Part shown: positions 1,620 to 58,797 of the stretch, piece after piece
Layout of the letters: every line of letters starts with the position of its first letter
Numbering within the stretch: position 1 is the stretch's first letter
NCBI GenBank assembly: GCA_034620365.1
Contig: JAQGEQ010000071.1
Location: 5,022,001 to 5,086,000, forward strand
DNA: 64,000 nt
Source of the DNA: Pegea sp. RAD2-039
Taxonomy: Eukaryota; Chordata; Thaliacea; Salpida; Salpidae
Reading direction: 5' to 3'
Made by a program: the position numbers and the translations under genes
Notes under the pieces: generated by a model
Told to the model about the DNA's origin: nothing
Databases searched by the model: none
What the model saw: the letters and a program-made list of their open reading frames with translations, nothing else

Positions 1620-2140
1620 TTTTAAACCTATTTTTTAAACCATTCGCAAATATATTTTACTTTATTGATAAAAAGAAAGTTTTAAAAAAGGTTTTTAGTG
1701 TTACCAAACGCTTTTTCTAAATACTTTTTATTGAATTTGTTTATTTGGTATTGCGTCGTCTTCATGCTGACATGCCTTATAATATTGCTATCTATTGCAG
1801 TATTGATTGAAAAGGACACAATGTTTTGTATAAATCGAAATAACGTTTTTGCATGGCAATTTTTAATTAATTTTTTCTGACTTTTTGATATACTGTAGGT
1901 ATTTTATTTCAGCATATAACATAGCTGTCATAATTTTCTAGGTCTTTTGCTCACTAAAATGATGTATGACTTAATAAACTAATTTCAAGTATTTTCAAAT
2001 ACCTCGAGTGTTGTTGTATAAAACTTTAAGTACAAAAACTTACAGTACAAAAACTCTTTATGTAAAATAGTGATTTATGCTTGCGTATCGGTACAATAAA
2101 GTTAGGCTTTATCCCCAATAAAGTAAATTCAATAAAATAC
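1620..2140 (+). terminator. 3' UTR and polyadenylation signals of the FRAS1/FREM2-like gene
   Basis: After the TGA there is T-rich, non-coding sequence with AATAAA hexamers at about 1973, 2117 and 2131. Any of these could be the poly(A) signal of the upstream gene. The 60-codon open frame inside 1698-1880 has no recognisable content and is treated as chance. Confidence 0.5.
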
Positions 2141-36760: not shown

Positions 36761-36819
36761 CATAAAGCAGTAAAAACAACCAAGGTAAGCGTCGCCGTAA
36801 CCAGAGATTTAAATTTCAT
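36761..36819 (-). CDS. Putative signal-peptide first exon of a small secreted protein
   Basis: ATG at 36819 is followed by 19 codons with a Lys-containing n-region and a hydrophobic core (MKFKSLVTATLTLVVFTAL), ending at a TG|GTAAGA donor. A motif shared with the secreted-protein genes at 40.8, 47.2 and 55.5 kb lies about 220-260 bp upstream, at 37035-37080. The exon is 59 nt, unlike the 52-nt first exons of those genes, and I could not trace the next exon. Confidence 0.35.
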
Positions 36820-37034
36820 TAGATTTAGTAAGACATTACTTTGATGTTAAAATAAGTATATGTATAATTTGTTATATTAAATACATGATAATATTTCTTA
36901 CTACTAAATACAGTTTACAAATGCTATTAGATAGACTGTTAAAAACATTACAACCGATTTTTATATTACCTTTTTTCAATAAAAAGCAAATCTATTTTGG
37001 AAAATGCAATAGCGGTAATAAGCTGAAACTCAAT

Positions 37035-37080
37035 ACCTTTAGGTAAGTTCATGACCTATTGCAGCCAAATTAGCAGCATT
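37035..37080 (-). promoter_or_regulatory. Shared upstream motif, copy at 37.0 kb
   Basis: On the plus strand it reads ACCTTTAGGTAAG ... CATGACC ... TTGCAGCCAAAT, then TAGCAGCATT. It aligns over about 45 bases with copies at 41033-41079, 47472-47517 and 55762-55807. Each copy lies 220-310 bp upstream of a minus-strand ATG that opens a signal peptide. I infer a promoter or enhancer element. Confidence 0.45.
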
Positions 37081-37379
37081 CTGACAAGAAATATTTTTCA
37101 AAACTTTAAAAAACTTCAACCGCAAGTGAAGTTTTATTAATATTTAAACATCATATAATTTGTATTGAAAATTTCAGTACTTTAATAATTACAAAGTAAT
37201 AGATATAAAATTGTAATGCTCTAAGGATTCAATTCATAACATTTCAATCACAGTTTGTTATTTTCTTTAAGATATTATATAAAAGATTCAATAAAAATTT
37301 GTATTTTGAAAAATCTCATATCATAATGTGTTTTACTATTGGGTTTTTCTAAATTTGCTTTTTAAACTCAATTATTAAA

Positions 37380-39000
37380 AAAAATTTGAAAATTTATTTA
37401 TTTCAATAAATGCGAAGGAGGGTTCCTGAAAAGAGCACCTCTCGCTAACACGCATTCTCACAAATAACATCTATTTAGCCAAAAATATAGAAAGTAAAAG
37501 ATGTAATACATGGTATTTCGATATCACTCAAAGTATATAACAGTAAACAATTACATGGAATGTTAATAATAAAAGAAAGAGAAAGAAAAATCACAGTTTA
37601 GAAATGACAATGTTGGCAATACTATAACGGTTCAACTTCTGCTTGAACAACGCGAGTGACAAAGGCATGACTTAGAAAGGGTGAATTAGTATTATCGCTA
37701 TCCAAGTTAAACGATTTTCCACTAAACGCTAAATTCGGGTTATTCCAATCAATTTTACCAAAATTAAAAAAACTTAGGTAGAAAGGTTTTGTTAGTGTGA
37801 TTAGTGACAACACTTCAAAGCGTCTGCAACGTCAGCCGGGCGCAGTTGCATCAGTTTAGAAGTGGAGAGTGGAATCCTGATGTGGAATCTAATGTGATAG
37901 AAGAATTGTCGTTTTGATGCTTGTGAGATTTGATGATGGGCTTCTGTAAATTGATATCTTGGGTATTAACAATTGTGCCCGGAGAGAGTTTGAAAAAGAA
38001 GATGTGGGTCCTGTGATTATTTGCCACTTCCGTTTTTTGAAAAAACCTTGACAATGGTGGACCTCGAACTTTGCATTTGAAATCAGTTGGTTGTTCCTTC
38101 TGATTTCGGTTATACGCTTCTTTTAGAAGACGCTTATTTTCTAAGCCACCATCTTCACACATATCATGTGATACTCTAATGCACTCGAATTTTTTCTCAA
38201 GCTTTAACTTATACAGCTTGGCAAGAAACTTGCGCTTGTTCTAATTTTTCTGAAAGGACACTTTCAACGGTCTTTGATGATCTGAACTTTTTTCTCCTAG
38301 TTTAGTCATTGATACCTTTAGAACGTCCACAGAATCAAGGCTTTGAGAGCACATTTGATTAAAGAACTTACTGTCATCATCTTTATCAGTCTCAGAGACA
38401 TTAAAGATGATGACATTGTCTTCTCTGTCCTCACGGTCTAAAGTGAGTTTTTAGTGCGTGTCGATGACCTTCTTGGCAAGAAGCTGCACCATGTTAGTAT
38501 TTTTGTCGGAACCGGGATCACCGACCACCGAGGCCCATGTGACTTGTTTCTTTGTAGAGGCATTCAGTTCGTCTATTGATTTAGACAATCTAGAAACTTT
38601 CTCATCAATCCTGCCAACATCTTTGGCAATATCCGATTTAAGTTTTACTAATTCAGTAGATACAGATTTGCTGATGTCCGATAATAGGTTTTCATCAGAA
38701 TTGATTGAGGGAGCTGTTCTGTTCATGGTTCTACATTTAATGCAAAACCATTTAAATTCCATTTGCTTCATCTGGTTTTTTTCAAACATATCATAAATTT
38801 TCTTGCTCACATCACTACAGGTGAGATGAAAGCAGGAGAGACATTTAAAACATTCTATTACCGGATCTTCACAAGAGCAAATTTTATTGCAAGATTGGCA
38901 ATTACCATTGCAATCTTGTTTTGATGAAGTTGGTTTATTAGGATTTTTTTTTTATTTGATCGTAAGGTCTTGGTAGTTCTATGTGTATCCACCATATCTT
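37380..39000 (-). pseudogene. Broken LINE: PHD-finger ORF1, endonuclease fragment and 3' end
   Basis: Reading the minus strand from about 38940, a cysteine/histidine cluster fits a PHD finger (CQSCNKICSCEDP ... ECFKCLSCFHLTC ... WFCIKC), then a coiled-coil-like segment to 38451. After a TAA the same frame continues as DNVIIFNVSE ... RPLKVSF, a LINE ORF1 signature, then a TAG at about 38239, and on to CKVRGPP and a stop at 37851. At 37813-37622 a FNFGKIDWNNPNL segment resembles the LINE endonuclease in ORF2. The remaining sequence is a short 3' region with a TAAATAAAT tail. Most of ORF2 is missing, so the copy is dead. Confidence 0.75.
37417..37470 (-). repeat. Dispersed repeat, LINE 3' end (copy 2)
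   Basis: Matches the stretch at 2906-2960 over the core CTGAAAAGAGCACCTCTCGC and beyond. Here it clearly lies at the 3' end of the minus-strand LINE remnant, before a TAAATAAAT tail near 37395. Confidence 0.6.
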
Positions 39001-39055
39001 TATAAAAGATTTTTACTGTCACCAAAATGTTTATAAGATCAAAGAAAAAGTTCAT

Positions 39056-40491
39056 GTTTTTTACAAATTAGCTAGTAGTACATTTGAACAAAAAATAACA
39101 AACGAAAAATATAGCGAAAAAGTTTCAATTAAATCAATCTAGTCATGATTCTTCTTTTTAGTCTTTAAATAAACTTGAAAAACAATTTCTGGATATTATT
39201 AGATTAAGACGTCATCATTAAAATATTACAATAAAGTTCTGACAACACTTTCAATTTAAAACAGTGATTCGGGTATTATATTTGTAGTTATCTGTAATTG
39301 TTTTGATATAATTATGTGCTTCCTCTAGACTAATTTCCAAGGATTTGAAAGTTACTTTATTTGATTATAGAAATCAGTTATTGATAAAGACTATAATTAG
39401 AATCATTAAAGTCAAAGTCAAAGGTGCCATGAGGGAAATAAACACAACAAAAAATTATTTTATTACACAAGATAAACTACAATGTCATTTCTTCAGACAT
39501 TTTCAGTTTTCAATTTTGTATGATTAAATAAACTAAAGTTGAAGTTAGAAACTGACGCACAAACCTTATAAAGTATGCACAGGGGTTAAATAAATAAGAA
39601 TAAAAATTATAGATTTCAAAAAGTGTTTGTATGATAACCATATACTAATATAAGTTCAAAAATCTATTTTTAGTAAGAATATTTTTGACTTGTTTGACCA
39701 GTAAAACTAAAATAGGCATTAAAGTAAAAAAAATAAAAAAAATATTCTTGTTTTTCAACTTTTCAAGAACATTTTAAAAGAAATTTGTTGTGGGAAATGC
39801 CCTCTGGGCCTCTATATACAGATAGATGAAAAATATTACTTTTAAGTCTGTCTATAACAATTTAGAACAACTGTAAACGTATTACCTCACCTAAATCATT
39901 ATAAATTTCTATATCATTTTTATCAGACTAAATTATGCTGGGTTTTTACATGCATTATATTCAAAGTGAAAAAATATATTTTATACATATTTCTAAAGAT
40001 GTGATTTAACTTGACACGATACATCTTAAAGAAATCACTAAGCTTTGAGAAACTATAAAAATTATTCAATTTTTGATAAAAGTCTATGAAGGATAACTGC
40101 TTTTCTGAATTGATAACACTGGCAACTTTATAATAATACTTTAAATAACAAATTTTGTTATGCATTATTTTATTTTTATTGAATATTTTAGATTCAATTA
40201 ACAAATTTTTATAGATGTACTCTGAGAAAATCTTGTTTAAGATTTGCTTCTTATGATGAACCTGAAAATTTGTTAAAATTAATGCTCAAAAGTTAATTAA
40301 AATTAGTTCAAATAATATTTCTAAAATTTTCGATCTAAAATTCTCAAGAGAAATTTTAATTTGTAATGTAGGTAGCTTTTACAACTTAACAATTAAAAAA
40401 TCAAATTAGAAAATCAAAGAGTAAATTTTAAATTAAAGTTTTTTGATAATTCAGCTCTACAAAAAAATAAATTAATTTGTTCTTACCTCAG
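39056..40491. other. AT-rich intergenic region, no gene assigned
   Basis: The 93-codon minus-strand frame 40204-39923 is rich in Tyr, Phe, Lys and Asn. It lies downstream of the secreted-protein gene at 40.5-40.8 kb. It could be 3' sequence of that gene's transcript, but it has no recognisable domain. Confidence 0.35.
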
Positions 40492-40786
40492 TTACCAGCC
40501 AAAAAGCAAGTTTGTTATTTTAGAAAAGTTTTCATTTTGTTCTTCAGAAGATGTTACATCTCCAAAGAATCCTGAAAACATATCTTCTGGAATAAAATCT
40601 CCAGAGCTTTCTGGAGGAGGACCAAAATCTTCATTTTCTTGAATAGGTAAACCTTTAAGGTAGTGAAATGATTATTTATGAGTCAATTTTAATTAGGCGA
40701 TTTATATATTATTGCAAAATCACTCATAACTTACCTTTAACAAAAGCAAGACACAACAGTAGAGCTAAACAAATTTCCACTCGCAT
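40492..40786 (-). CDS. Small secreted acidic protein (family member 1)
   Basis: Two exons: 40786-40735 (52 nt) and 40652-40492, joined in phase 1, encode 70 residues ending in TAA. The first exon gives a signal peptide, MRVEICLALLLCLAFVKG. The mature part is acidic, rich in Glu, Asp, Ser, Pro and Phe, with no cysteine, and ends NLLFGW. The exon 1 length and phase and the LALLLCLA core match the genes at 47208 and 55498. A shared upstream motif lies at 41033-41079. A further strong donor (GAG|GTAAGA) lies 5 bases past the stop. An alternative GGCTG|GTAACT donor would skip the stop, so a longer form is possible. I do not recognise the family. Confidence 0.6.
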
Positions 40787-41032
40787 TTTAATCAGTTTAT
40801 TTAACTTACAGAAAACAGAATTCCTGAAAATAAATTGTGAGAATTCTTTTTAAATAACTTTTTTAGAAAGTAGAACTAAATCCAAGTGGAAAAAAGTTTT
40901 CTTTAGAATATTTTTTACTAACTAATAGAGTTTAAATATCGTACAAGTTAGTATCTCTTGATAAATAAGAAATGATATTAAAAATGGAAATGTCAATGCT
41001 GGATTTATAAGTTATATCTTTATGAATAAAAG

Positions 41033-41079
41033 CCCTTCAGGCAAGATTATTATCTTAGCAACAAAAATTAGTAGCATTG
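41033..41079 (-). promoter_or_regulatory. Shared upstream motif, copy at 41.0 kb
   Basis: Reads CCCTTCAGGCAAG ... TTAGCAACAAAAATTAG, then TAGCATTG on the plus strand. It aligns with the other three copies and lies about 250-290 bp upstream of the ATG at 40786. A CTTATAAATCC sequence on the minus strand, just on the gene side, is a possible TATA element. Confidence 0.5.
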
Positions 41080-41154
41080 AGAAAAGACCAATGAGTCAGT
41101 AATTTTGTAACAGCTTAAAATTGGTAAATGTTCAAATACTTGCTGGGATGCTAG

Positions 41155-41532
41155 TAGTATAGCCAACTTTGGCCGAGAACGGCCATGTTGTAAGCTAGGG
41201 TAGAAGTTATGGGGACCCAGTTATTGCCCATGTAGTAGTATTTCATTCTCTACGCCAACAGCGGAATAGGACTGACCCGGTTACGCCCAGCTGGCGTCGC
41301 AGGAACTACCAGAAGGACACTGAGTACAGTGAAAAACTGCCTATAAGACCACAGCTCCGACTTTAAACTCGGAGTTTTGTGTCTCTTAGAAGTGTTACCT
41401 TAAAACAAACTAGCTTTTTTACCCGTAGTTTCTTATAGATTTTTTCTTGTCGCAAATATGTGTCTACCTAGACTCGAAGTCCGGTACCTTTTGTGTATTA
41501 GTTGGATGTGATAACCGGTACACTACGGAGAC
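41155..41532 (-). mobile_element. Probable tRNA-Val-derived SINE
   Basis: On the minus strand, 41532-41460 follows a eukaryotic tRNA-Val over its whole length: GTCTCCGTAGTGTA, then GGTTATCAC, AAAGGTACCGGA and TTCGAGT. The anticodon stem no longer pairs and the acceptor stem is only partly preserved, so it is not a working tRNA. Downstream (41400-41155) is a sharply GC-richer body with two clean hairpins, CTCCGAgtttaaagTCGGAG and TGGCCGttctCGGCCA. A tRNA head plus a structured body is the usual SINE layout. No second copy was seen in this window. Confidence 0.6.
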
Positions 41533-41539
41533 GGAATAC

Positions 41540-43145
41540 TAACAGATAGAGATATTAAATTCTTTAGATCTTAAAGAGGTAGATTTTTATTAGAAGATTA
41601 AAAAATTGCAGTCCTATCAAGTTCAACATTGCTTCAAAGTTTTGTAAACTTTCAAACCATTTTATGGTTTACAGAGACATCACCAACTGAAACCAATTAA
41701 AAATACTCAAAAATACCGACTTAATCGAAAAGTCTAACCACTAATAAGGAGACTTATAATATATTTCAGGTGATATTTATATAGTATCATGGTGTTTCAG
41801 TTACTGTTGAAAAGGATTTAAAAACACAGTATAATAAAAATAAGAAAAAAATAAATAAAAAATAAATAATCAACCAATTTTGTTTAATGACATTTAAGAT
41901 TTTATAATAAATTTGTATTTCTTTTTATTTGAGATCTTGTTCAAAATTGCTGCTGTAGTTCAACTATATCAATCATAAATATTAGTTTGTAAATTGCTTT
42001 AGTAATTTTGAAACTGTTTGATAAATAAATATGACATACTCTTTAACAGTATCTACGTGACAGAGATTTTATTTCAAACTTATCTTATTAAAAAAATTGT
42101 AACTTTTTTCAAGTTCATTTATGAGTTTGTCAGAAAGAATTAAAATTCTCACGAATGATTTGAGAGATTTAATAAAGAAATACGTTTGAAAAACATCAGA
42201 TATTATTTATTCATTAAAAAAATAAATATAAATGTGGCATCTGTATAAAGTAGATATTAAAGTATAAGTTTTAAAACAGAACTAAGATTTTTTTAAAATA
42301 AACAGGACTTTTTAAAAGGAAATAACAATTACTTAATCCAAAAAAAAGATTTGAATATTTTTATTTCAGGAGAGTAAACAGTTTCAGCCAATATCAACGC
42401 TACGATTTTGTGAAAAAAATCAATTTTTAAGTTTATAAAACTTTATTTAATCAGCTTTAACTAAGTAAGTTATAATAATTAAACTGTATAATAAAACATT
42501 GAGATTTTTTTACTAATGAAAGATGTAGTTACAGAAAATTGTCTTACAAACGATTAGGCTGACAGCACAACGAAGCAAGTACAATATTTTAGAATTATTC
42601 ATCAACAGATCAATGTTTCAAAAATTCTACATGATCTTGTGGTTAGGTGTGTCTGAGATGTTATCTCAAATAATTTAAGTTGTAGCAGCTACTTTTGCAC
42701 GAATAATTTATACATGATATCATCAAAACAGTTTATGTGTAAAAGTTTTCCTTAAGGCTAAAAATCGGTAAAAATATCACCAAAAAAATATTAAACAATA
42801 GAATTTAGAAAACAATTTCCTATAAATAGAACTCTTTTCTCGAACACAGCCAGATCTTATGTTGCTTGGATTTAAATTTTATGAGACTTCAAGAAAAATA
42901 TTTCTTTTTGTATAAACTTAAAAAAACTAATAATTAGCTCAGTTAAATCTAAATGAAATAACTGAATTCTTAGCTATATTTATTCTTCTATTACAAAACT
43001 TTCAATGAGTTGTTTTTTAAATTTATTATTTATTTTAAAAGCGTTAATTAGTCAAAGATATAAAATAACACCTAAAGTTTTAATATTTCCTTCTTGATAT
43101 CGTTTTGCCTGAATTTTTTAGGTCATTAAAAAAGACAGAAATAAA
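41540..43145. other. Intergenic region between the divergent secreted-protein genes, with ancient duplication homology
   Basis: The segment around 42620-42690 matches 48871-48950 and 57149-57228 over GATCTTGTG, TGTGTCTGAGATGTTATCTC and AAATAATTTAA. A second match includes TTAAGGCTAAAA near 42753. Thus the whole pair at 40.8/43.1 kb is an older paralogue of the duplicated units at 45.3 and 53.6 kb. No gene is seen inside. Confidence 0.55.
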
Positions 43146-43735
43146 ATGAAAATTGTTTTAATTTTAGCTCTGTTGGTGGTTTCCTGTTCAACTCAAGGTG
43201 AATATACTATAGATATAAGTATATACTCTAATTAATATTACTTTAAACAATGTTTAATTCAGTAGAATTCAATGTTTAAGTCTAAATCTCCGTGTTATAG
43301 TTAAACTATTGTCTTTAAAGTTTATGTTTTAACTGTTATAGGTGTTGAAGTAAAGAAAAATTTTACTCTGAACTTTTTTACAAACTTCTTGAAAAACAAA
43401 CCAGGGTTTAGAAAATGCCTTTTGGATTGTGTTGCTTCGGAAGAATGTAATCTTTGTCGAGAGTGTATTTATTTAAGATGTGGTTAGTTGAAATATATAT
43501 TTATTCTTCTATAATTTTTATTTTTTTAAATAATGTAAGTCTTCGAAAGTCAAACATCAATTGAAGCTTGGTTTTATCTTCAGAAAGATCACCTTTTCCA
43601 ATAAAGTGTAAAATTAAAGCTGCAGTTGGTTACTGTCGCAAAGATTGTGAAGGGCCTAACAAACAAAGCGAATGTATTCAATGTGTTTTTAAATGCTACA
43701 AGAAACCTAAATTCTCTACAAAAAGATTTGCCTAA
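43146..43735 (+). CDS. Small secreted cysteine-rich protein (family member 2)
   Basis: Three exons: 43146-43197 (52 nt), 43342-43482 and 43584-43735 (TAA), joined in phase 1 at both junctions, encode 114 residues. The signal peptide is MKIVLILALLVVSCSTQG. The mature chain has two cysteine modules, one in each of exons 2 and 3. Module 1 is C-x3-C-x5-C-x2-C-x2-C-x4-C. Module 2 is C-x3-C-x8-C-x2-C-x3-C. The tail is Lys-rich. Paired C-x3-C motifs can form disulfide-linked helical hairpins, but fold and function here are inference. AATAAA follows at about 43864. It is head-to-head with the gene at 40786. Possible roles include venom, mucus, matrix or antimicrobial peptide. None is shown. Confidence 0.75.
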
Positions 43736-45312
43736 TGACAACACAAACAAATGGAATTTTAAGGGTTATATATATATCAATGATTTATTGTTTTATCTAT
43801 TTAGCATACTAATAATAAAAGTATAATTATAAACTATTTATGTTGCTTAAATATTATTTGTTGAATAAATTTGTTAATACTGCAACTGAGTGATTTTTTA
43901 TCAGATTTTTGATTGGTTGAGTTTATTTTTGATATTTTGAATTAAGTTTCGTAAATCAATTCCTGAAAGTTTTTAAAAATTGTCCATTTTAAATAATTTA
44001 TTCAAATTAGCTGATGTGTTTGCTCACAAAAATATTTAGTCATTTACGATTTGCAGATTGAAAATTGTATAAAGGGGTTATCAGATAATGAAGAAATTTA
44101 AGAAAATTTGTAAAATGTTCGAATAATTTTTTTTAAATTGACTACTTTGCTAATGACACAAATAAGATTAACTTGGCAGAAAAGTAAAAAATGCTCGGTC
44201 ATAAGATCTTCAAATAAATATTGTAAGAGATTAACATTAGCCCTGAAGTTATTTTAACTTTACACAACTGTGAACATATTACTTTTCTTAAAGTTGTTTA
44301 GCAGCTTCTTCTATTGATTTTAGTTCTAAAGATTCTAAGTGGAAAGTGAAAACATTTTGATCTTACAAATTTCAACTATAACTCGACACAGAAAAATTAT
44401 CAAGTTGTAAAAAGTTTATCTGGTTTCTTTAGAAAGGTGATAAGAATTACTAATCTAACTGAGAAGGTGATATGAACAACTTTGGCATTACTTTAAAAAT
44501 TGAATTTTTTTATAGATCATTTTGCTGTTATTGAATATAAAAAATATAAAGACAATTCTACAAATTTTCATTTATATGCTTTGAATAAATCAACGAATAA
44601 ATTTTGAATTTACTTTATTTATAAATGAGGCTTTTGGTTCAAAGATTTCATAACTAAAAATTATAAAAAAGAAAATTAAATCATTTTAGACTGAACATAT
44701 ATAAAGTCTTGCTAAAAACAATTTAAAAGTGAAATATAGTTGGCCTATCAAAGTAAATCAAAGTGGTTTATACAGGCATTAGAAGATAATTTATGGTGAA
44801 ATATCAACGAAATAGTTGATGAGCAAGTTTCTACTTGTAACCACACAACTTTTTTTCAAAGTTTTACTTGCTGACAAGAATGTAGTTATATTGTTAGCTA
44901 GCACTGGAGTATTTTCCTCAAAAAGTAATTTTACATTAAAAAAGCAAACGTTGTTTTATTTTTTGAATGTCTTATGTGTCTGTTAGACTTCAAGAGAATA
45001 ACAAAGTTTTTTAACTGATTTCTAGATTATAGTTTGGTTATACATGAACGAATTACAAGATAGAATAGTTGAGAGAATTTTTAATCACATTTTGATCATA
45101 TTATCGGTTTCAAAAATAATTTGTGAAAAAGTTTAGTTATCTAAAAAAGTAAAAGCATTAAAAATAGAAATCAATTCATGTATAGCAACAACTGTTTTTA
45201 CATTTGAACAACTTCTTGTCTAAATCAATAACAAGATAAAGACTTTATAAAACACGATTATTTTCTTATAAATTCATTCAAACTTGAAAAAATAAATCTT
45301 TAAGTAACTAAC
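43736..45312. other. AT-rich intergenic region, no gene seen
   Basis: Contains the 3' end of the cysteine-rich gene and then AT-rich sequence up to the left border of the first duplicated segment. No exon with protein-like content was found. Confidence 0.45.
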
Positions 45313-46874
45313 ATGTAGTTTGGTTTTAGTTCTAAACTTATTTCCCTTATTCTATTAAACAAGTTTTAGGGAATTTAGTGTAGTTACTTCTGTTAATGAT
45401 TACTTTCAATATTTAAAGAAATAAAATCCTTAATCCTTTTGTTTTCAGTGTATTTATCAGCTACTAACTTATAATTGACTAACTAAAGATAAGTTTTAAA
45501 CTTTTTTGAATTCAATTTGAAAACAAAGCAAAGAAATAAAGATATAAAATTCCTCAATCAACACAAGTAGACAAACAGTAAGAAAAGGTACAAACACACC
45601 ACTAAGTTACTTGCATCTTCGAAAAGAGCCTCAAATTAATTAAATCTTATCTTAATCATTAGGTGGATTAAAATAAAGAGTTTAAATCTTCTTACTTATA
45701 TGAATAAACTTATCATAAATTTTTCAAGCTAAAATATGAAATCGATTATTCATTATTAATATAATTATGATATATTTGATTAATGTCAGTGTTTGTAATC
45801 TGCAGTGTAGAAAAAATTCATATATAAGTATAAAAAGTGTCAGAGACATTTTTTGCTTTTGGTTTTATCCATTTCTGGTATTTAAGATTTTTTTTCGTTA
45901 TATAAATTATAGGTTGTTGTTAATCCAGTTTCCGTTTACTGATATTTTAAATTCAACAAATGGCATAAAAAGCAATAATAAAAAAGTATCAAAAATTAAA
46001 TAAAAGAAATAACAACAATTTTAACAATGACTAACAACCAATAAAAGTTGTTAAGAACTGTTTTCTTTGGTGTGATCAGTTTTTATAACCTAAACGTTTG
46101 AATAATGAAAAGAATTTTACTTAACTCAACAAATAACATTTAAGTTTCTTTTTGGCTTAACTTATTTCATCAAAACCCTCAAGTCGATTTTGAAATAGAA
46201 GTTAGTCCTGTAGGCGTCTTAGTTCTTTTATATTTATCTCAATTTATTTAGAAGAGACAAAAACCTTGCCTAGTTAAGTTTCTTGTATTAATTTTATTCG
46301 TCTTCAGTTTCTCATATTTAAATTCTAAATTATAAGTAATAATGACAAGATTTATATGAAACGATTTAAATTAAGTTGATTCAAACATCTTTTGTGAAAC
46401 GTAGCATCTTAAGAACTTTCGATATCATTTGATTTCTAAAAAGTACTAAACAAAAATCACTTATTAAATTGCTAGCTTCATATTAATTTTTAATATTACA
46501 ATTTTTGTTATACATTTTTTTTATTGAATATATTCGATAAAAACATAATCTACAATTCTTCACTTAGTTTCTTTGAATATACCATTGAGCATTTTTCAGA
46601 AGTTGATTTTTAGGACTAAGCTTGAAGCTCTAAACAATTAATACTCAAAGTTAGTATAAACTAAATAATTGTATTATTGTGTTATAATTATTTATATTAA
46701 TCATTACTTTATTGTTTTATATTTGTAATTCTTAAAAACAACTTTTGATGAAAGCAGTTCGTAAAAACAAGTACCTATTTCAAGTAAATTGCACAAAAAC
46801 ATATAGTTAGATTTTAAATTAACGTAAAACTGGTATCTAAGCTCTAGTAATTAGATTAATTGAACTTTTCTTAC

Positions 46875-47208
46875 CTCTAGCCATGCACAAGTAGTAACAT
46901 GTTTTACAAGCTACGTAATTAAAAGGTGTTGTTCTACAAATAGCTTCGCACTCCGCCTTGCAAAGCTTTCGTTTATCTTCTATCTCTTCAAAGCCTTCTG
47001 GCCGGGTACCACCTGGTCCTCGTCCTGGTCCACCCCTTCCAGGGCCTCCTCTTCTTGGACCACCTTGTCCTGGGCCTCCTCTTCTGGGACCTCTTTGACC
47101 TTTTAGAAAAAAATTACTTTTAAGTTATTTCAAAAGTCTGACTTGTAATTTACTACCTTGAGCAACAGCAAGGCACAACAATAGAGCAAAAAGAACCACA
47201 AATCGCAT
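46875..47208 (-). CDS. Small secreted Gly/Pro/Arg-repeat protein with cysteine-rich C-terminus, copy A
   Basis: Exon 1 is 47208-47157 (52 nt, signal peptide MRFVVLFALLLCLAVAQG). After a 57-nt intron, exon 2 is 47099-46875. The mature N-terminus repeats (R)RGGPG(Q/R)GGP-type units for about 30 residues. The C-terminal part reads RKLCKAECEAICR and YVACKTCYYLC, a C-x3-C-x3-C-x9-C-x2-C-x3-C pattern. Exon 2 ends at a strong GAG|GTAAGA donor in phase 1, so a third exon is expected. A candidate at 46774-46704 (from TAG|GTACTTG, open to TAA) would give 115 residues. Unspliced, the frame stops after 14 more codons. Exon 2 is far richer in G+C than its surroundings. The repeat is not a strict Gly-X-Y collagen. 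Confidence 0.7.
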
Positions 47209-47471
47209 TTTTATCTGTTTATTTGTTTGAAAAATATTCAAATATCTAGAAACAAAATGTGGAAAAGTTTAAATTAACATTAATAAGAGAGCTGAATCTA
47301 ACTATAACAAGAAAAGTTCTACGAATAGTAAAACATTACTACTTTAATGTTTGAATAAAATGATAAAACATGGCTTGTTAGAATTAAAACCGAATCGTTA
47401 TATCACTCTTTATTCCAAATAAATTGTATTAAAGTTGAGTGCACCACTGCTTATATGAGCTACAATTGGTA

Positions 47472-47517
47472 CCCTGCGGCAAACCCATGATGTAATGCAG
47501 CAAACTTTAGCAGCATT
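47472..47517 (-). promoter_or_regulatory. Shared upstream motif, copy at 47.5 kb
   Basis: Plus-strand reading: CCCTGCGGCAAACCCATGATG, then TAATGCAGCAAAC, then TTTAGCAGCATT. It lies about 265-310 bp upstream of the ATG at 47208. A CATATAAGC sequence at about 47450-47458 on the minus strand may be the TATA element. Confidence 0.5.
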
Positions 47518-49376
47518 ACTTACAGCTTGATTTTACAAGCAACTTAATTGAACCACATTTAGTTCACCTTAAAGTACCTGGCAATTGTAAAAGCTAAGTA
47601 CTTGATTAGATACCAACAGATGCAAAGGTGATTATTTTCGGATTTGTTGTGGACATAGAAGCAAACTTGAGATAATTTATCCATAAAAGTGAACTTACAA
47701 AAAATTCAAATAAATAAATACTGTCAAATTTTACAAAAACCATCATTGCTTTTATTGGTTATGTTTTTTTTATCGCTTATCAAACTTATTTCAAATAAAG
47801 ATATAAACAACTAAAATAGGTTCAGAAAACATCAAACTTGTTTTGATAAATGTTTTGTACAACTTGTTGATAATTTATTTAGTTTTATTGCCACGAAATA
47901 ATGGCAGTTGAGTTTGAAGTGCTAATTATGTTCTTTAAGCTATTTGTAAAAGATATTTAAATAAATATAAAGTTAACATTTAATTCTATTTATCTGAAAA
48001 TTAGTTTCAAAGCAGGTTTTTAATGAACAAAACAGGTTTTTAAAAGTTAATATTAGTTTATATATTTTTTTTTGTATCTTTTTAGAAATTAAATCAAAAT
48101 GATAATTTTGTTCTGTCGCCCAGGGAAAGAGAATGTACCTGCTTAAGGAATTCACAAAATGTCCATTTTCTTAAAATCTACAATTTGAATAGCAACTAGT
48201 TCTGATGTATCTTCGATATCACTTTTTACAAATAAAAAAAAATCATAGCTTGCTTCTTTTCAGTATTTATATGAACAACATTTTTTATATTATTTAAAAA
48301 CAATAATCTTATTACTTGAACATTACATATGTTTGAAGTAAACGATCATTGAAAATATGATGATTAAAATTTGCTACTGTGGTAATTAAAATATTCAAAC
48401 AGTTTTATACTCTAAACTTTAAATACTGTTTACTTTTTAAAGAAATTTAGCGATGGTTTTGACTCTTGTTAAAAAACTCTTGTTAAGTTTTCTTAAATCA
48501 TAGCTTTTAAACTTTTATCAAATTTGTTTAGCTATTTTTACAATTAGTATTTTTGTCATCTATTAATTGTTTTAAGAGTTTAAAATTAACAGATTCTTTA
48601 TCAAAATTTCTTTTTGTAATAATTCATTTTAAACTTATTTTTAAGTATAACAAGATTTTACTTCTTTTTGCTTACCTTGTTGGTAATTGTTACTAAAGTA
48701 ATTCAAGATATCTATTAAATTTATTTAATAATTAAAATTTTTGAGTTTTTATAAGTAATCAATAACAACATGAAACTTAGTTTAAGCTTACTCAAAATTA
48801 TTTTGGTAGACTGATACTGCATTTGCAAAATGTTGCTAAAAATTATAAAATAATCTATCAATATTTTGAAAATTCTATATGATCTTGTGACTAGATGTGT
48901 CTGAGATGTTATCTCAAATAATTTAATCTGTAGCAACTACCACTGTTGGATTACATAAAACATATTATCTCTTTAAATAGTTATCAAGTAAAAATACAGT
49001 TTAGCTTAAGGCTAAAATTTCAATTCAAAATAATATCTTAAAAATAGATGTCATAATAATGTTAAAGTAGAAGTACAAAATTTGAAATTTAATTCTTTTA
49101 ATAACTAGAAAATATTTCGATATTTTTCAAGTTTCGTCAGCACCAGTTAAAATTGAGGGAAATTTTATCAATTAGATTATATGTGCTGTGAGTTTAATTA
49201 TAACCATAAAGCTGTTGACCTAGTTTACTTTTACTTAACATTTTTTTGATATGATTGATTTTTTGTGTTTATAAAAGATAATTTAGTTAATAATATTTAT
49301 TACTGACAAATGTTTTATTTGTTTTCTATCTTAACATCTTTTATATGAGATTTTCGATTATAAAAAAGACACAAAA

Positions 49377-49437
49377 TAAAAATTATTTTAATTCTAGGTA
49401 TGTTGATGATCTTTTGTTCAGACCGACATAAATATGG
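49377..49437 (+). pseudogene. Relic of the cysteine-rich secreted-protein first exon, copy A
   Basis: The sequence AAAAAGACACAAAATAAA then AATTATTTTAATTCTAG aligns with the ATG region of the gene at 43146 (AAAAAGACAGAAATAAAATG, then AAAATTGTTTTAATTTTAG). The ATG and adjacent bases are deleted. The remaining frame still reads a hydrophobic KIILILGMLMIFCS. No intact downstream cysteine exons were found, although a TTTGCAG|AAAGAGCAT near 49672 may be a decayed exon 3 acceptor. Confidence 0.6.
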
Positions 49438-50100
49438 TAACAATAAGTAATTTAATTTTAAATAATATTTAATGTGATAAACCTCAATATTTTAATCTAA
49501 TTCTCTATTCTGTAGTTTACATATTATTTGTGTTTAAACTTCACTTTTTAAACGTTATAACATCTGTCTTAAAGTAACAAGTTTACTATAAACTCTTTTA
49601 TAAGTAGCAAAAAAATAAAGCAGATGAAAATATCTTGTGGTTTGTAATGCCCCTTCTTGCATTATTTGCAGAAAGAGCATTCATGTGATCAGATGGAATA
49701 TAGAAGATCTCTTTCGATTTCATTGAAACCTCTGTTAAACCAATAAATTACCAACCCAATTTAGAATGTGAGAATAGATTTGTTTAAAAAATTCAGGTAC
49801 AAATAATATGAAAATAATTGAAACTCTGTTAACTAGATTTTTGGAAAATTTGCAATTGTTGAAATTTTAATTATAAACCAATTTTAGTTTCTGTAAATCA
49901 TCAAAAACACCAAAAAATTGTCTGGAAATATCAAGAAAGTTTCTATACACCTGAACTTCTAAACATTTTTTAACTATCTTTCAAATTTATACTGATGTGT
50001 ATCACTAAGAACAACTATTTTTGTAGCTGTAAAAATTTCGACAGGTAAAATATGCTAAAAGACTTTTATTAAATTAGAAAATAAAGCTTAATTAATAATT

Positions 50101-51145
50101 TTATTGGGAATTATGATTCTGACAATAAACACCCCAGAGCTGTTAATTAAATAAAAAAAAAACGATTTAGTAATTATATAAGTTTCTTAAATAAGGTATT
50201 TGTTTTAAAAAAATATTTTCTCTTTAATTTTCAGAAATAAGTAATATCTTATTTATCTCGCGTTTTATTTTAGAATGTAAATTTTGTAATTTTTTAGTGC
50301 TTTAAAACTGAGTAAGATATATGTTTTTTAATTTTCAGTACCAAGTCTTTTGAAGTTTTTCAGCAAATATAAGATCGAAATGTTAAAAAAATTTGTTGGA
50401 TTTTGAAACTATTTACTATCTGTTTGATTGTCTTAGACATGTCAATTTTATTCATGCTAAAAAAAATTACCAAACAATTTTGGCAGCGCTGATTTGCTTT
50501 TTAACTCCTCAAAAAATATTTGATTTTCCTATTTTAGACTTTTTAATGATATTGTAATTCTTTAGTATATTAGACCTTTTAAGCTAAATTTTCATGAACT
50601 AATAATCTTAAACAAGATTTGATTACAATTCTTATTCAATTTGAATTAATTTTTTATTAGATAAACTATTATCTGATTAATATATATATATTATTATAAT
50701 TAAATTATAAAATAAATTTTTATTAAATTTGTTTTATATTATTAACTGTAAATTAGTATTTATTATTTTTATAGAAAGGATTTTTTTATCAGTCTTAAGT
50801 TTTATCTATGTTTTCTAATGAACTTTACTGTTGACAAAAAAAGCCCATACAAGAATATCATCAGAAGTTGGTACCATCTTTACTTGTACATTACTGAAAT
50901 TGTTGAAGTGATTTAAGATGATAATTCGTAATTACCTATAGAAAAATTTCTTCACTTAAGATTGTTGGTTGAAAACTGAACATGATGAAAAGAACATTGA
51001 CAACAAAAGGACAATTTTATCTTCATCATCTATTTCATTTGTGATGGCAAAAAATATCAAAACAACGAAAAGTTTTGAATACCAACAAAAAATTACATTT
51101 TAAAAACAATATCAGTTGCTTCTTCTAAATCATCTTTGACATGAT
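50101..51145. other. AT-rich spacer between duplicated segments, nothing recognised
   Basis: No exon or repeat identified. AT-rich, including a TATATATA run near 50680. Confidence 0.4.
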
Positions 51146-52068
51146 TTTAGAGACCTTCGTTTGGTGATAAATCTGCCATACAAGAGGCATTCATCATCTC
51201 AACTTTTAATGACGTTGATGATGAATTTAGGGTCTCATTTTCTTTTTCAAGAACCATCGAATAGTTGAAGAGATTAAAAAGGATCTTGGTTGCTTATTAA
51301 CAAATACCTCTTCTAAATATTTCTTGGTTTCAGCCAGCTTGTGATTTGCATCAAGTACTTTGCTACTGAGATGAACATTCTTCTGAATTTGTTTATTCAG
51401 GAGTTGCTGGAAAATTCAGAATGTTTTCATTTGATTACTGATTATTATTGATACTTGATAATTTGGTTTTTTACTGAGTTTTTGTAGAAGTATTTTACAA
51501 ACAAACAAAAGATTTTAGAATCGAATCAACTCACTAAAAATCTCAACTCTTCTGTCTCTTCTATGATCACTGATTAAGGTCATTTACTGATAAAAATCAA
51601 CAGATTCATGAAGAAAAAAGTCCTATCCGAACCAAGAGAGGTTGAAATATGACTCTGGAGATATTGTTTGATGCAAGCAACCCTGAATAAGTTTCAAATA
51701 TAGATGGGAAAGAAAATTCATTTGATCTTAATGGTCTTGAATGTCTCGATTGATAAAGAAACAGATGGGCTGATCTACCTAATGAATTTTCTGGTGATAC
51801 TTTAAAGAACTATTTACTTAAAGATTCTAGCACAGATATGACACTTGCAAGGATAAACGCTGAAGTGGACACGAATATGATTTTTCAAAGTTCCACTTTC
51901 ATTGAAACTTTGTTGACAAATATCACACTGACATGGTTTTTCACCAGTATGAATTCGACTATGATTTTTAAGATAAGATTTTAAATTTAAATCTTTCTTA
52001 TATTGGATACATCTAAATAATTTTTTCTTAGAACTTGCTTCATTTTCGTTTTTCCGGGTTGCTGGCAT
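51146..52068 (-). pseudogene. Decayed C2H2 zinc-finger protein gene with C-terminal coiled-coil remnant
   Basis: From 52068 the minus strand encodes three C2H2 fingers. Finger 1 has lost its second cysteine (FRCIQY) but keeps NHSRIH and the TGEKP linker. Finger 2 is intact (CDICQQSFN ... LKNHIRVH). Finger 3 starts CHICARIFK and resumes one frame away as NSSLKYHQKIH after a stop and frameshift near 51814. Further downstream a Gln/Lys/Leu-rich, coiled-coil-like stretch (QQLLNKQIQKNVHLSSKV) reads from about 51414. A frame-shifted EKENETLNSSSTSLKVEM stretch then ends in TAA near 51149. I infer a dead transcription-factor-like gene or fragment. Confidence 0.6.
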
Positions 52069-53551
52069 TTCATTTATTTGAAGTTTTAAATAATTATTGA
52101 GTACTTTGAAAAGTTGAAGATTTTTTTATTATTCGTAAACTAATTTTAATCTACAACAAATTAATAAAACAAGAATATTCAAATTGAAAAAAAAACATGT
52201 CATACAAAAATCTATTAAAAAAAAGCTAAGTAAAGTTTAAGTAATCGAAACCAACTTTAAAAAAGTTTTAGATATGTAATTTAGCAAACAGACATTAAAA
52301 TTAGTTTAACAATATATTATATATATTTTTAATATTTAACAAATTTTTTGATTAAAGTTATTTAAAAATATTCAAAAATAAATAAATTTCGATTAAAGCA
52401 TTAGAAGACTGAAGATTGACACAAAAATAAAAAACATAATCTAACTTTTAGTAGTTTTAAGTCTAAAATTTTAAAAAATAAGTTTCTAGTGATAACAAAC
52501 ATGAAAAAAAGATTTTTAAATATATTTTCAAAAAATCAAATATAAAAGTTATAGAAATAATTTAAAAGTTTAATAAAGTTTTCAAGAATTTCAGATTATA
52601 ATGGAGAAATAATCAGATATAGATGAAAATAGAAATCAACTAAAATCAGGAGAACGCAAGTTTCAATTACAAAATTTCATTGCAGAAAATTGGACAATAT
52701 AAAAACTTGATAAGTAAAAAAAAGTTACATTATGGATAGATAGTATCACAAATATAATAATGATTTAGAAAAATTAAATTTCAAACTTATTACACCCATT
52801 AATCAGTAATTAAGAATAAAAATAGTTTTTGCGACAACGCACAGAAACACACAAAAGATCAGAAGCTTGATTAGTGATGTCACTGAAGTACAATTATGTT
52901 AAGAAATCTTCCACAAATGGCGCAATTGAGCTCATTCTAAGTTTATGATTACCCAATTGCAAAGAAGATTAATTAACATAACTATTTCCTATAAACTATT
53001 AGAACTAAAATATTCTTCTCTGTAATTAAAACAAATTTATAAAAAAATCAAAATATTGAACTTTGTAGATATTGTAAATATTAAAAGTTAATTCAACTAA
53101 TCTTTTAAAATTGTTAGATTTATATTAAACTAATGATGAAATAAAATAAATTACGTCGTGTCTTTCTTAAGATTTCTTTTGGTCTAAAAACTCGTTTCTA
53201 ACTTAAAAAATTATTTCAAGCCAATGTAACCAACGAGTATTGTATTATATATATTGAATTATATTTCTGATGTTGTTTATAACTTTGGTTTTGCACAGCA
53301 AACTCACATTATAATTTTGGTCAAAATTGTTGGTAACATTTTTAAATATTTGGTAACAAATTTGATCAGTTTATATTTAGGATTCTCATTAACGGGGATT
53401 TTGTGAAATTTAGTCTACATCACAATTAAGGTTTGCCGCGTTTTTTAAAACACTTATATTATAAAAAAAATTAATAGAGTTAATTTCCATTGTAAGATCA
53501 TAGCAAATAAGTTGATTTAGCTGATTTATTAGAATAAATATTAGTTTGGTT
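52069..53551. other. AT-rich spacer, nothing recognised
   Basis: No protein-like exon or repeat identified before the left border of the second duplicated segment. Confidence 0.4.
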
Positions 53552-54065
53552 TTAGTTCTAAAATTTTTCTTGAATTTATTAAACAAGTTTTAGGGAATTT
53601 AGTGTAGTTACTTCTGTTAATGATTACTTTCAATATTTAAAGAAATAAAATCCTTAATCCTTTTGTTTTCAGTGTATTTATCAGCTGCTAACTTATAATT
53701 GACTAACTAAAGATAAGTTTTAAACTTTTTAGAATTCAATTTGAAAACAAAGCAAAGAAATAAAGATATAAAATTCCTCAATCAACACAAGTAGACAAAC
53801 AGTAAGAAAAGGTACAAACACACCACTAAGTTACTTGCATCTTCGAAAAGAGCCTCAAATTAATTAAATCTTATCTTAAGCATTAGGTGGATTAAAATAA
53901 AGAGTTTAAATCTTCTTACTTATATGAATAAACTTATCATAAATTTTTCAAGCTAAAATATGAAATCGATTATTCATTATTAATATAATTATGATATATT
54001 TGATTAATGTCAGTGTTTGTAATCTGCAGTGTAAAAAAAATTCATATATAAGTATAAAAAGTGTC

Positions 54066-54153
54066 ATCAAATATAACTTAATTGTTAAAGGAATCAAAAT
54101 ATTTCAATATTAAAGTAATAAATGAATTTTTTCTATTGCTGGTCGTTCTGTTG
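54066..54153. other. Copy-specific insertion (or copy A deletion) of about 88 bp
   Basis: Copy A runs AAGTGTCAGAGACATTTTTT without a break. Copy B has AAGTGTCATCAAAT ... CTGTTGAGACATTTTTT. The extra AT-rich sequence has no inverted repeats and no coding potential that I can see. A short microhomology at the edges would fit a simple indel. Confidence 0.7.
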
Positions 54154-55164
54154 AGACATTTTTTGCTTTTGGTTTTATCCATTTCTGGTATTTAAGATTT
54201 TTTTTCTTTTTATAAATTATAGGTCGTTGTTAGTTCAGTTTTCGTTTACTGATATTTTAAAATGAACAAATGGCATAAAAAGCGATAATAAAAAAGTAGC
54301 AAAAATTAAATAAAAGAAATCACAATAATTTCAACAATGACTAACGACCAATAAAAGTTGTTAAGAACTGTTTTCTTTGGTGTGATCAGTTTTTATAACT
54401 TAAACGTTTGAATAATGAAAAGAATTTTACTTAACTCAACAAATAACATTTAAGTTTCTTTTTGGCTTAACTTATTTCATCAAAACCCTCAAGTTGATTT
54501 TGTAGCCGTCTTAGTTCTTTTATATTTATCTCAATTTATTTAGAAGAGACAAAAATTGCCTAGTTATGTTTCTTGTATTAATTTTATTCGTCTTCAGTTT
54601 CTCATATTTAAATTCTAAATTATAAGTAATAATGACAAGATTTATATGAAACGATTTAAATTAAGTTGATTCAAAACATCTTTCGTGAAACGTAGCATCT
54701 TAAGAACTTTCGATATCATTTGATTTCTAAAAAGTACTAAACAAAAATCACTTATTAAATTGCTAGCTTCATATTAATTTTTAATATTACAATTTTTGTT
54801 ATACATTTTTTTTATTGAGTATATTCGATAAAAACATAATCTACAATTCTTCACTTAGTTTCTTTTAATATACCATTGAGCATTTTTCAGAAGTTGATTT
54901 TTAGGACTAAGCTTGAAGCTCTAAAAAATTAATACTCAAAGTTAGTATAAACTAAATAATTGTATTATTGTGTTATAATTATTTATTTAATCATTACTTT
55001 ATTGTTTTATATTTGTAATTCTTAAAAACAACTTTTGATGAAAGCAGTTCGTAAAAACAAGTAACTATTTCAAGTAAATTGCACAAAAACATATAGTTAG
55101 ATTTTAAATTAACGTAAAACTGGTATCTAAGCTCTAGTAATTAGATTAATTGAACTTTTCTTAC

Positions 55165-55498
55165 CTCTAGCCATGCACAAGTAGTAACATGTTTTACAAG
55201 CTACGTAATTAAAAGGTGTTGTTCTACAAATAGCTTCGCACTCCGCCTTGCAAAGCTTTCGTTTATCTTCTATATTTTCAAAGCCTTCTGGCCGGGTACC
55301 ACCTGGTCCTCGTCCTGGGCCACCCCTTCCAGGGCCTCCTCTTCTTGGACCACCTTGTCCCGGGCCTCCTCTTCTGGGACCTCTTTGACCTTTTAGAAAA
55401 AAATTACTTTTAAGTTATTTAAAAAGTCTGACTTGTAAGTTACTACCTTGAGCAACAGCAAGACACAACAATAGAGCAAAAAGAACCACAAATCGCAT
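55165..55498 (-). CDS. Small secreted Gly/Pro/Arg-repeat protein with cysteine-rich C-terminus, copy B
   Basis: Exon 1 is 55498-55447 (52 nt) and exon 2 is 55389-55165 (225 nt), with the same structure as the gene at 47208. The differences I see in exon 2 are two silent changes in the Gly-Pro repeat and one codon change, GAG to AAT (Glu to Asn), just before the cysteine-rich part. All six cysteines and both splice sites are kept. The possible third exon is also kept open here, entered after GAAATAG at about 55055. Preservation of the frame suggests that both copies are functional. Confidence 0.7.
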
Positions 55499-55761
55499 TT
55501 TCATCTGTTTAATTGTTTGAAAAATATTCAAATATCTAGAAACAAAATGTGGAAAAGTTTAAATTAACATTAATAAGAGAGCTGAATCTAACTATAACAA
55601 GAAAAGTTCTACGAATAGTAAAACTTTACTACTTTAATGTTTGAATAAAATGATAAAACAAGGCTTGTTAAAATTAAAACCGAATTGTTATATCACTCTT
55701 TATTCCAAATAAATTGTATTAAAGTTGAGTGCACCACTGCTTATATGAGCTACAATTGGTA

Positions 55762-55807
55762 CCCTGCGGCAAACCCATGATGTAATGCAGCAAACTTTAG
55801 CAGCATT
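55762..55807 (-). promoter_or_regulatory. Shared upstream motif, copy at 55.8 kb
   Basis: Identical by eye to the copy at 47472-47517 and placed at the same distance from its ATG (55498), as expected from the segmental duplication. Confidence 0.5.
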
Positions 55808-57647
55808 ACTTACAGCTTGATTTTACAAGCAACTTAATTGAACCACATTTAGTTCACCTTAAAGTACCTGGCAATTGTAAAAGCTAAGTACTTGATTAGA
55901 TACCAACAGATGCAAAGATGAGTATTTTCGGATTTGTTGTGGACATAGAAGCAAACTTGAGATAATTTATCCATAAAAGTGAACTTACAAAAAATTCAAA
56001 TAAATAAATACTGTCAAATTTTACAAAAACCATCATTGCTTTTATTGGTTATGTTTTTTTTATCGTTTATCAAACTTATTTCAAATAAAGATATAAACAA
56101 CTAAAATAGGTTCAGAAAACATCAAACTTGTTTTGATAAATGTTTTGTACAACTTGTTGATAATTTATTTAGTTTTTTTTGCCACGAAATAATGGCAGTT
56201 GAGTTTGAAGTGCTAATTATGTTCTTGAAGTTATTTGTAAAAGATATTTAAATAAATATAAAGTTAACATTTAATTCTATTTATCTGAAAATTAGTTTCA
56301 AAGCAGGTTTTTTAAAGTTAATTTTAGTTTATATATTTTTTGATTATCTTTTTAGAAATTAAATCAAAATGATAATTTTGTTCTGTCGCCCAGGGGAAGA
56401 GAATGTACCTGCTTAAGGAATTCAAAAGATGTCCATTTTCTTAAAATCTACAATTTGAATAGCAACTAGTTCTGATGTATCTTCGATATCACTTTTTACA
56501 AATAAAAAAAAATCATAGCTTGCTTCTTTTCAGTATTTATATGAACAACATTTTTTATATTATTTAAAAGCAATAATCTTATTACTTGAACATTACATTT
56601 GTTTGAAGTAAACGATCATTAAAAATTTGATTTTTAAAATTTGCTACTGTGGCAATTACAATATTCAAAAAGTTTTATACTCTAAACTTTAAATACTGTT
56701 TACTTTTTAAAGAAATTTAGCGATGGTTTTGACTCTTGTTAAAAAACTCTTGTTAAGTTTTCTTAAATCATAGCTTTTAAACTTTTATCAAATTTGTTTA
56801 GCTATTTTTACAATTAGTATTTTTGTTATCTGTTAATTGTTTTAAGAGTTTAAAATTAAAAGATTCTTTATCAAAATTTCTTTTTGTATTAATTCATTTT
56901 AAACTTATTTTTAAGTATAACAAGTTTTTACTTCTTTTTGTTTAGCTTGTTTGTAATTATTACTTAAGTAATTCAAGTTATCTATTAAATTTATTTAATA
57001 ATTAAATATTTTGAGTTTTCATAAGTAATCAATAACAACATGAAACTTAGTTTAAGCTTACTCAAAATTATTTTGGTAGACTGATACTGCATTTGCAAAA
57101 TGTTGCTAAAAATTATAAAATAATCTATCAATATTTTGAAAATTCTATATGATCTTGTGACTAGATGTGTCTGAGATGTTATCTCAAATAATTTAATCTG
57201 TAGCAACTACCACTGTTGGATTACATAAAACATATTATCTCTTTAAATAGTTATCAAGTAAAAATACAGTTTGGCTTAAGGCTAAAATTTCAATTCGAAA
57301 TAATATCTTAAAAATAGATGTCATAATAATGTTAAAGTAGAACTACAAAATTTGAAATTTAATTCTTTTAATAACTAGAAAATATTTCGATATTTTTCAA
57401 GTTTCGTCAGCACCAGTTAAAATTGAGGGAAATTTTATCAATTAGATTATTTGTGCTGTGAGTTTAATTATAACCATAAAGCTGTTGACCTAGTTTACTT
57501 TTACTTAACATTTTTTTGATATGATTGATTTTTTGTGTTTATAAAAGATAATTTAGTTAATAATATTTATTACTGACAAATGTTTTATTTGTTTTCTATC
57601 TTAACATCTTTTATATGAGATTTTCGATTATAAAAAAGACACAAAAT

Positions 57648-57708
57648 AAAAATTATTTTAATTCTAGGTATGTTGATGACCTTTCGTTCAGACCGACATA
57701 TATATGTT
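57648..57708 (+). pseudogene. Relic of the cysteine-rich secreted-protein first exon, copy B
   Basis: Same decayed, ATG-less signal-peptide exon as at 49377-49437, with extra changes (ATGATCTTTTGT became ATGACCTTTCGT, which replaces Cys with Arg). Because both copies lack the ATG, the loss predates the segmental duplication. Confidence 0.6.
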
Positions 57709-58797
57709 AACAATAAGTAATTTAATTTTAAATAATATTTAATGTGATAAACCTCAATATTTTAATCTAATTCTCTATTCTGTAGTTTACATATTATTTG
57801 TGTTTAAACTTCACTTTTTAAACGTTATGACATCTGTCTTAAAGTAACAAGTTTACTATAAACTCTTTTATAAGTAGCAAAAAAATAAAGCAGTTGAAAA
57901 TATCTTGTGGTTTGTAATCCCCCTTCTTGCATTATTTGCAGAAAGAGCATTCATGTGATCAGATGGAATATAGAAGATCTCTTTCGATTTCATTGAAACT
58001 TATGTTAAACCAATAAATTACCAACCCAATTTAGAATGTAAGAATAGATTTGTTTAAAAAATTCAGGTACAAATAATATGAAAATAATTGAAACTCTGTT
58101 AACTAGATTTTTGGAAAATTTGCAATTGTTGAAATTTTAATTATAAACCAATTTTAGTTTCAGTAAACCATTAAAAACACCAAAAAATTGTCTGGAAATA
58201 TAAAGAAAGTTTCTATACACCTGAACTTCTAAACATTTTTTAACTATCTTTCAAATTTATACTGATGTGTATCACTAAGAACAACTATTTTTGTAGCTGT
58301 AAAAATTGCGACAGGTAAAATATGCTAAAAGACTTTTATTAAATGAGAAAATAAAGCTTAATTAACAGTTTTAGTTTAGATGACTCGTGTTGACATCTTT
58401 ATTATAAAGCTTTGTGTAGTACTAAGTAAAAAAGAAACATGATAAACCATTTGCTGGCTATTGATGGTATAACCAATCTATTAAAGTTTTTTGATGCAGT
58501 CAAGTTTATCATTTAATTATAAATTTAGAATTAAATAATTTGCAAAAATTTAAAAATTATAATTTTTCAAACTTTCTTCATCTTTTGCAAAACTATTGTG
58601 AAAAATATAAAATAGATTTTTTACAAACTTGGATTGATTCAATATGTGACATTTATTTCAAATTATTTAAAGTAACATTTATGAAATGAAATAATAAATG
58701 ACAATCAATACAAGCTAATCAAAAGTCAATTTAAAAACAGAGCTAAAACTAAAAAATTGAATGAAGTAGACTGCTGAGAAAGTTTTTAAGACCACAA

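Follow-up and report, generated by a model that had tools for sequence, protein, structure and literature searches.

Do the small genes crowded into one stretch of the genome of the salp Pegea sp. RAD2-039 form a single family, and what would such a family do? The stretch, hereafter the window, is 64,000 nucleotides of a 6.1 Mb contig (assembly of 105.7 Mb in 387 contigs), and we read the cluster within an extended region of 264 kb (27.4% G+C), which is the scope of all six-frame, leader and open-frame counts below. A preliminary description had proposed four genes that share a 52-nt leader exon, lie in three divergent pairs and encode mature parts with nothing in common. Our analysis supports a family of small proteins, apparently secreted and evolving fast, because the leaders are related, the exons are in phase 1, and both dead copies and a fresh duplication are present. 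As read from the sequence, its unit is a divergent gene pair spaced about 2.2 kb, with a conserved element between the two members; two diverged forms of this unit are present, and one of them has been recopied recently. Gene B carries a cysteine domain twice, and genes C and D carry it once with a Gly/Pro/Arg tail, as judged by a motif composed afterwards. The features on which the argument turns are as follows.

40492-40786, minus strand: gene A, exons 40735-40786 (leader) and 40492-40652 (52 and 161 nt)
43146-43735, plus strand: gene B, exons 43146-43197, 43342-43482 and 43584-43735 (52, 141 and 152 nt)
44408-45090, minus strand: X, dead relative of A and C, with a decayed leader at about 45074-45090 and a tail that matches the A and C tails
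46704-47208, minus strand: gene C, exons 47157-47208, 46875-47099 and 46704-46774 (52, 225 and 71 nt)
49376-49750 (end approximate), plus strand: psi1, dead partner of C, homologous to the leader and exon 2 of B
54994-55498, minus strand: gene D, recent copy of C, exons 55447-55498, 55165-55389 and 54994-55064
57646-58020 (end approximate), plus strand: psi2, dead partner of D and copy of psi1
42609-42763, no strand assigned: element of pair 1, core 42648-42678
48857-49017, no strand assigned: element of pair 2, core 48896-48926
57127-57287, no strand assigned: element of pair 3, core 57166-57196
45316-50103, no strand assigned: duplicated block with C and psi1
53542-58373, no strand assigned: second copy of the block, with D and psi2 and an insertion of ~86 bp

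Hydrophobic leaders, assessed by hydrophobicity rather than by a signal-peptide predictor, open with ATG at 40786 (minus), 43146 (plus), 47208 (minus) and 55498 (minus). Each is followed directly after nucleotide 52 by GT in phase 1, as the preliminary description had it, where a donor at 55 is also possible in gene C and gene D is identical there. All introns of the four models are in phase 1. Among the 183 hydrophobic 17-codon ATG leaders of the region, GT stands at position 52 in 10 and GTRA there in A and B only. Leader identity is 51/52 between C and D and 39/52 between A and C. A weak point is B, whose leader agrees with that of C at 30/52 positions (the best among the 183) and with that of A at 27/52 (tied best with one other). 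With the cut taken after residue 18, the mature product of A is an acidic peptide of 52 residues (pI 4.05, net charge -10.2) with 0 Cys, while that of B has 96 residues, 12 Cys, pI 9.3 and a net charge of +11.6, with one cysteine domain each in exons 2 and 3. Gene C joins a Gly/Pro/Arg tail to 7 Cys (pI 9.71, net charge +11.7), and the product of D has pI 9.81; the repeat is only ~30 residues long. The last exon of C is uncertain, where reading through exon 2 to a stop within 46837-46848 would leave 6 Cys.

Inspection of the mature parts reveals that B, C and D, which had been described as differing completely, share one domain, C-x2-[DE]-C-x(5-14)-C-x2-C-hydrophobic-aromatic-x(1-2)-C. The conserved leader with radically different mature exons, put forward earlier as a hallmark of rapidly evolving secreted peptide families, holds for A only; the other three are variants of this domain. 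The motif matches four times in six frames, in B exon 2, B exon 3, C and D and nowhere else, a count that is descriptive, since the motif was composed after the four domains had been seen. Alignment of the four domains leaves five invariant cysteines, with gaps of 3,3,9,2,3 in C and D, 8,3,8,2,3 in B exon 3 and 3,5,2,2,4 in B exon 2. When residues are shuffled 200,000 times, the motif is retained 7 times for C, 0 times for B exon 3 and 17 times for B exon 2. A narrower five-cysteine form is confined to B exon 3, C and D and gives 0 matches in each of six Markov-2 controls, and a looser four-cysteine form gives 9 matches versus 0-2 in controls. Single-sequence AlphaFold2 models of the C domain and of B exon 3 predict two-helix hairpins: the model of the C domain has two helices, mean pLDDT 70.6 (76-90 in the last four 10-residue blocks) and pTM 0.43, and that of B exon 3 has two helices, mean pLDDT 64.7 and pTM 0.40. 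The doubled domain of B may have arisen through duplication of a symmetric phase-1 exon.

The cluster also holds two features absent from the preliminary description: the third dead member, X, and conserved non-coding elements, one per pair. The element spans ~155-160 bp and sits upstream of both B and the dead plus-strand members, at a distance of ~0.4-0.5 kb. Its sequence in pair 1 is 75% identical to that in pair 2, and it forms the best conserved stretch of the alignment of these pairs. In windows of 40 columns, identity reaches 0.90 and 0.93 in the element core, compared with 0.78-0.80 in the B leader and mostly 0.4-0.7 elsewhere. A genome search with the element returns three matches, all inside the cluster. 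Within the core stands GAGAT-GTT-ATCTC (42655-42667, 48903-48915, 57173-57185), and the opposite strand of the core contains AGATAA, which we take to be a GATA-type site. The simplest reading of this sequence is a shared control region of the divergent genes; its retention where the plus-strand gene is dead would fit service to the minus-strand gene. The element was also considered as a 5' exon of A or C, and inspection by eye found no minus-strand splice donor common to both pairs.

Comparison of the pairs describes how the cluster grew. Start-to-start spacing is ~2.36 kb for A/B, ~2.17 kb for C/psi1 and ~2.15 kb for D/psi2, with the starts of dead members placed by alignment, so the spacing of 2.1-2.4 kb proposed earlier stands. 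Pair 3 was copied from pair 2 recently, with an ungapped identity of 97.4-97.8% across three stretches, which leaves two independent pairs rather than three. Pairs 1 and 2 are homologous over 42463-43435 and 48696-49650 (62%, 223 bits) and over 39902-40893 and 46275-47315 (58%, 82.5 bits), where controls reach at most 49.7 bits with reversed sequence and 51.1 bits in five other regions. An origin of the pair as an inverted copy gains no support; minus-strand matches between pairs score no higher than controls. Both plus-strand members reported as dead are so, lacking a start codon at the aligned place and carrying stops within the remnant. For X, the tail scores 71.1 bits against that of C and 59.7 against that of A (best controls 52.5 and 58.3). 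Dead members thus make up 3/7 of those seen; the plus-strand member is dead in 2/3 units, and only one pair has both members intact. Genes C and D differ in five codons (3 synonymous, 2 replacing; ~83 synonymous and 265 other sites), which is compatible with weak constraint and too few for proof. An interspersed stretch at 41152-41536, between A and B, recurs ~130-140 kb further left (70% and 69%; 182 and 101 bits); it is probably a repeat that entered pair 1. A minus-strand frame at ~51900-52125, which separates the copied blocks, contains a zinc-finger-like stretch with an HTGEKP linker, and at the left edge of the second block 53254-53591 matches a site ~153 kb to the left (74%, 212 bits).

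What the family does has to be weighed among several readings. The one we favour, tentatively and at a little short of an even chance, is a lineage-restricted family of secreted cysteine-hairpin peptides, most likely for defence, under birth-and-death evolution. Here the leader would direct secretion, the cysteines would pair across the hairpin, the conserved element would act as a shared control region, and the cationic products (about +12 at pH 7) would act extracellularly on microbes, like other cysteine-bridged hairpin and tail-plus-cysteine-domain peptides. By analogy, the products may work like a cysteine-stabilised defence peptide. The preliminary description had named venom, glue and defence together for a rapidly evolving secreted family; the family is borne out, and the three functions are indistinguishable by sequence, where charge, predicted fold and architecture lean to defence. 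Several points weigh against this reading. Transcription, activity and defence itself are putative. Gene A is acidic and its mature part lacks cysteine. The structural models are single-sequence with modest pTM (0.43, 0.40), and Foldseek with these models returned nothing at E <= 0.001. BLOSUM62 alignment separates the domains poorly, with shuffles reaching the observed score in 50 (B exon 2 with B exon 3), 568 (B exon 2 with C exon 2) and 356 (B exon 3 with C exon 2) cases, each of 2,000. The codon scores come from training on 20 flanking open frames, hand-picked as recognisable genes from a list prefiltered by base composition, and set against 90 background stretches (maximum 0.26). Exon 2 of A (0.40), C (0.61) and D (0.60) exceeds every background stretch; B exon 2 (-0.14), B exon 3 (0.04) and C exon 3 (-0.34) gain no support, and the antisense frame of C exon 2 outscores its sense frame (0.72 vs 0.61).

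Those same scores, which leave B exons 2 and 3 and C exon 3 within background, are what a partly spurious cluster would give. That is to say, A, C and D may be genes while B, whose two relatives psi1 and psi2 are dead, would likewise be a copy in decay with remnants for open frames. We consider this improbable, since B consists of three open phase-1 exons with GT and AG sites, holds two adjacent Cys-dense frames of a kind seen in only 21/1,652 open stretches, and keeps the C/D motif in both domains. A structural or adhesive secretion (glue, eggshell or body-wall matrix) ranks next after defence and is unlikely rather than remote; acidic A and cationic B and C would bind each other and cross-link. 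The opposite net charges (-10.2 for A versus +11.6 and +11.7 for B and C), the Gly/Pro/Arg repeat and the divergent pairing with a conserved element would all suit it, whereas both members survive in only 1/3 pairs, and the products and their repeat are short. Delivery to other animals or cells, as venom-like, hormone-like or mating-signal peptides, is distinctly unlikely. Small, apparently secreted, cysteine-rich and fast-evolving products would fit, and the alpha-hairpinin fold is reported in some scorpion and cone-snail potassium-channel blockers (PMC7191063); against this, there is no sequence match, nor support from a venom apparatus or a receptor. The most far-reaching possibility, which we regard as a long shot, is a new animal system in which one conserved control element governs divergent pairs with matched products: the acidic member would neutralise the cationic cysteine-hairpin peptide, or keep it in store, until release. 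Hairpin modules would be reshuffled in this scheme by way of symmetric phase-1 exons, giving single, doubled, tailed and lost forms.

The cluster extends over ~40.3-58.4 kb, bounded by a phosphodiesterase exon on the left and a PDZ exon on the right. The range first proposed, 36761-58372, holds for this part, and 36.7-39 kb contains no family member above background. On the minus strand of that interval are open frames (37851-38162 and 38451-38951) that begin cysteine-rich and have no Pfam match at cut-off, and 37351-37630 matches a site 122 kb away at 79%; as a guess, 37351-38951 may be a mobile-element remnant. The flanking genes are of animal type, with FREM exons on the left side, an SH3 exon, a 6-phosphogluconolactonase-type exon, the phosphodiesterase exon and a weak TPR match; right of the cluster, the PDZ match is weak. 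Rfam at gathering thresholds gave no match within the window. A search for the bdelloid spliced leader that allowed up to 2 mismatches gave no match; Brachionus plicatilis is reported to have no conserved spliced leader (PMC1925144). COX1 was likewise not found, by a search whose positive controls (8 of 14 genomes) are prokaryotes. Two successive FREM-type exon sets with near-identical peptides run from about -75 kb to +1.6 kb of the window start (loci L007-L016 and window 1-1620), the second beginning with a Frem_N domain (L014:1277-2041); in the open-frame list, unaligned, they give the impression of a tandem duplication of a gene tens of kb long. At window 26028-26831 lies a 27-bp tandem repeat of ~30 copies with frames open on both strands. 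A CDK-inhibitor gene (L020:749-1585) has a 91% identical relative on metagenome contigs, which places a close relative of the animal in sequenced environmental samples.

If expressed, the genes would contribute cysteine-stabilised helical-hairpin peptides that form an orphan set. A single locus with single, doubled, tailed and lost domain forms, together with dead and fresh copies, could serve the study of peptide birth and death, and an element with three genome matches is a concrete candidate for a control region that divergent genes share. At the sensitivity of searches that also miss known cluster members, no relatives outside the cluster appeared in Pfam, the Protein Data Bank (PDB), a large protein set or the rest of the genome. 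Literature searches brought up no description of this cluster, which does not establish that the cluster is unpublished.

Among the closest known systems are the penaeidin- and hyastatin-type antimicrobial peptides of crustaceans, whose plan of signal peptide, Pro/Arg/Gly-rich part and Cys-rich domain both C and D follow, with the leader identified by hydrophobicity only. Penaeidins have the same Pro-rich plus cysteine-rich plan. The cysteine pattern of this type probably differs; Pfam with the C translation gave no family at cut-off, with no dedicated comparison beyond it. SpHyastatin, a crustacean antimicrobial peptide, is likewise cationic and secreted and combines a Pro-rich stretch with a cysteine-rich domain (PMC4954822). 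The Hairpin Loop Peptides (HLPs), known from fungi and some animals including Rotifera such as Brachionus calyciflorus, are described as predominantly hydrophobic, with 0-2 charged residues, pI about 5.5-6.0, a 15-residue loop and a mature start GP (PMC13357843). The likeness would lie in a signal peptide, two helices and six cysteines in near mirror order (PMC13357843), where here the leader is judged by hydrophobicity and the helices are predicted. The gaps of C (3,3,9,2,3) are nearly symmetric, with a seventh Cys in the three-exon model. In contrast to HLPs, C is strongly cationic and hydrophilic (pI 9.71, +11.7), has 9 residues between the inner cysteines and begins GQRGP or QRGP depending on the cut.

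Alpha-hairpinins are plant antimicrobial peptides of two antiparallel helices and a loop, with nested disulfides (Cys1-Cys4, Cys2-Cys3); here, two helices appear in single-sequence models only (pTM 0.43 and 0.40), C and D of this animal add a Gly/Pro/Arg tail, and there is no sequence match. PMC11591084 gives the motif of the six-cysteine (6C) class as CX3CX3CX4-20CX3CX3C, from which the C/D gaps of 3,3,9,2,3 fall one residue short in one gap (x2 vs x3). For the four-cysteine (4C) class, CX3CX4-20CX3C with X not Cys, every candidate stretch of C, B exon 3 and B exon 2 has an extra Cys inside. The products are not assigned as members of the alpha-hairpinins, HLPs or hyastatin-type peptides; strict membership fails for the alpha-hairpinins because one gap is x2 rather than x3, and for the HLPs because C is strongly charged. 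In predicted fold and spacing they resemble the alpha-hairpinins, the 6C class most of all, and the HLPs. Orphan secreted peptides that lie in clusters and evolve fast are a familiar pattern, and what is less usual is the divergent-pair unit with a private conserved element and the occurrence of one cysteine domain on both strands.

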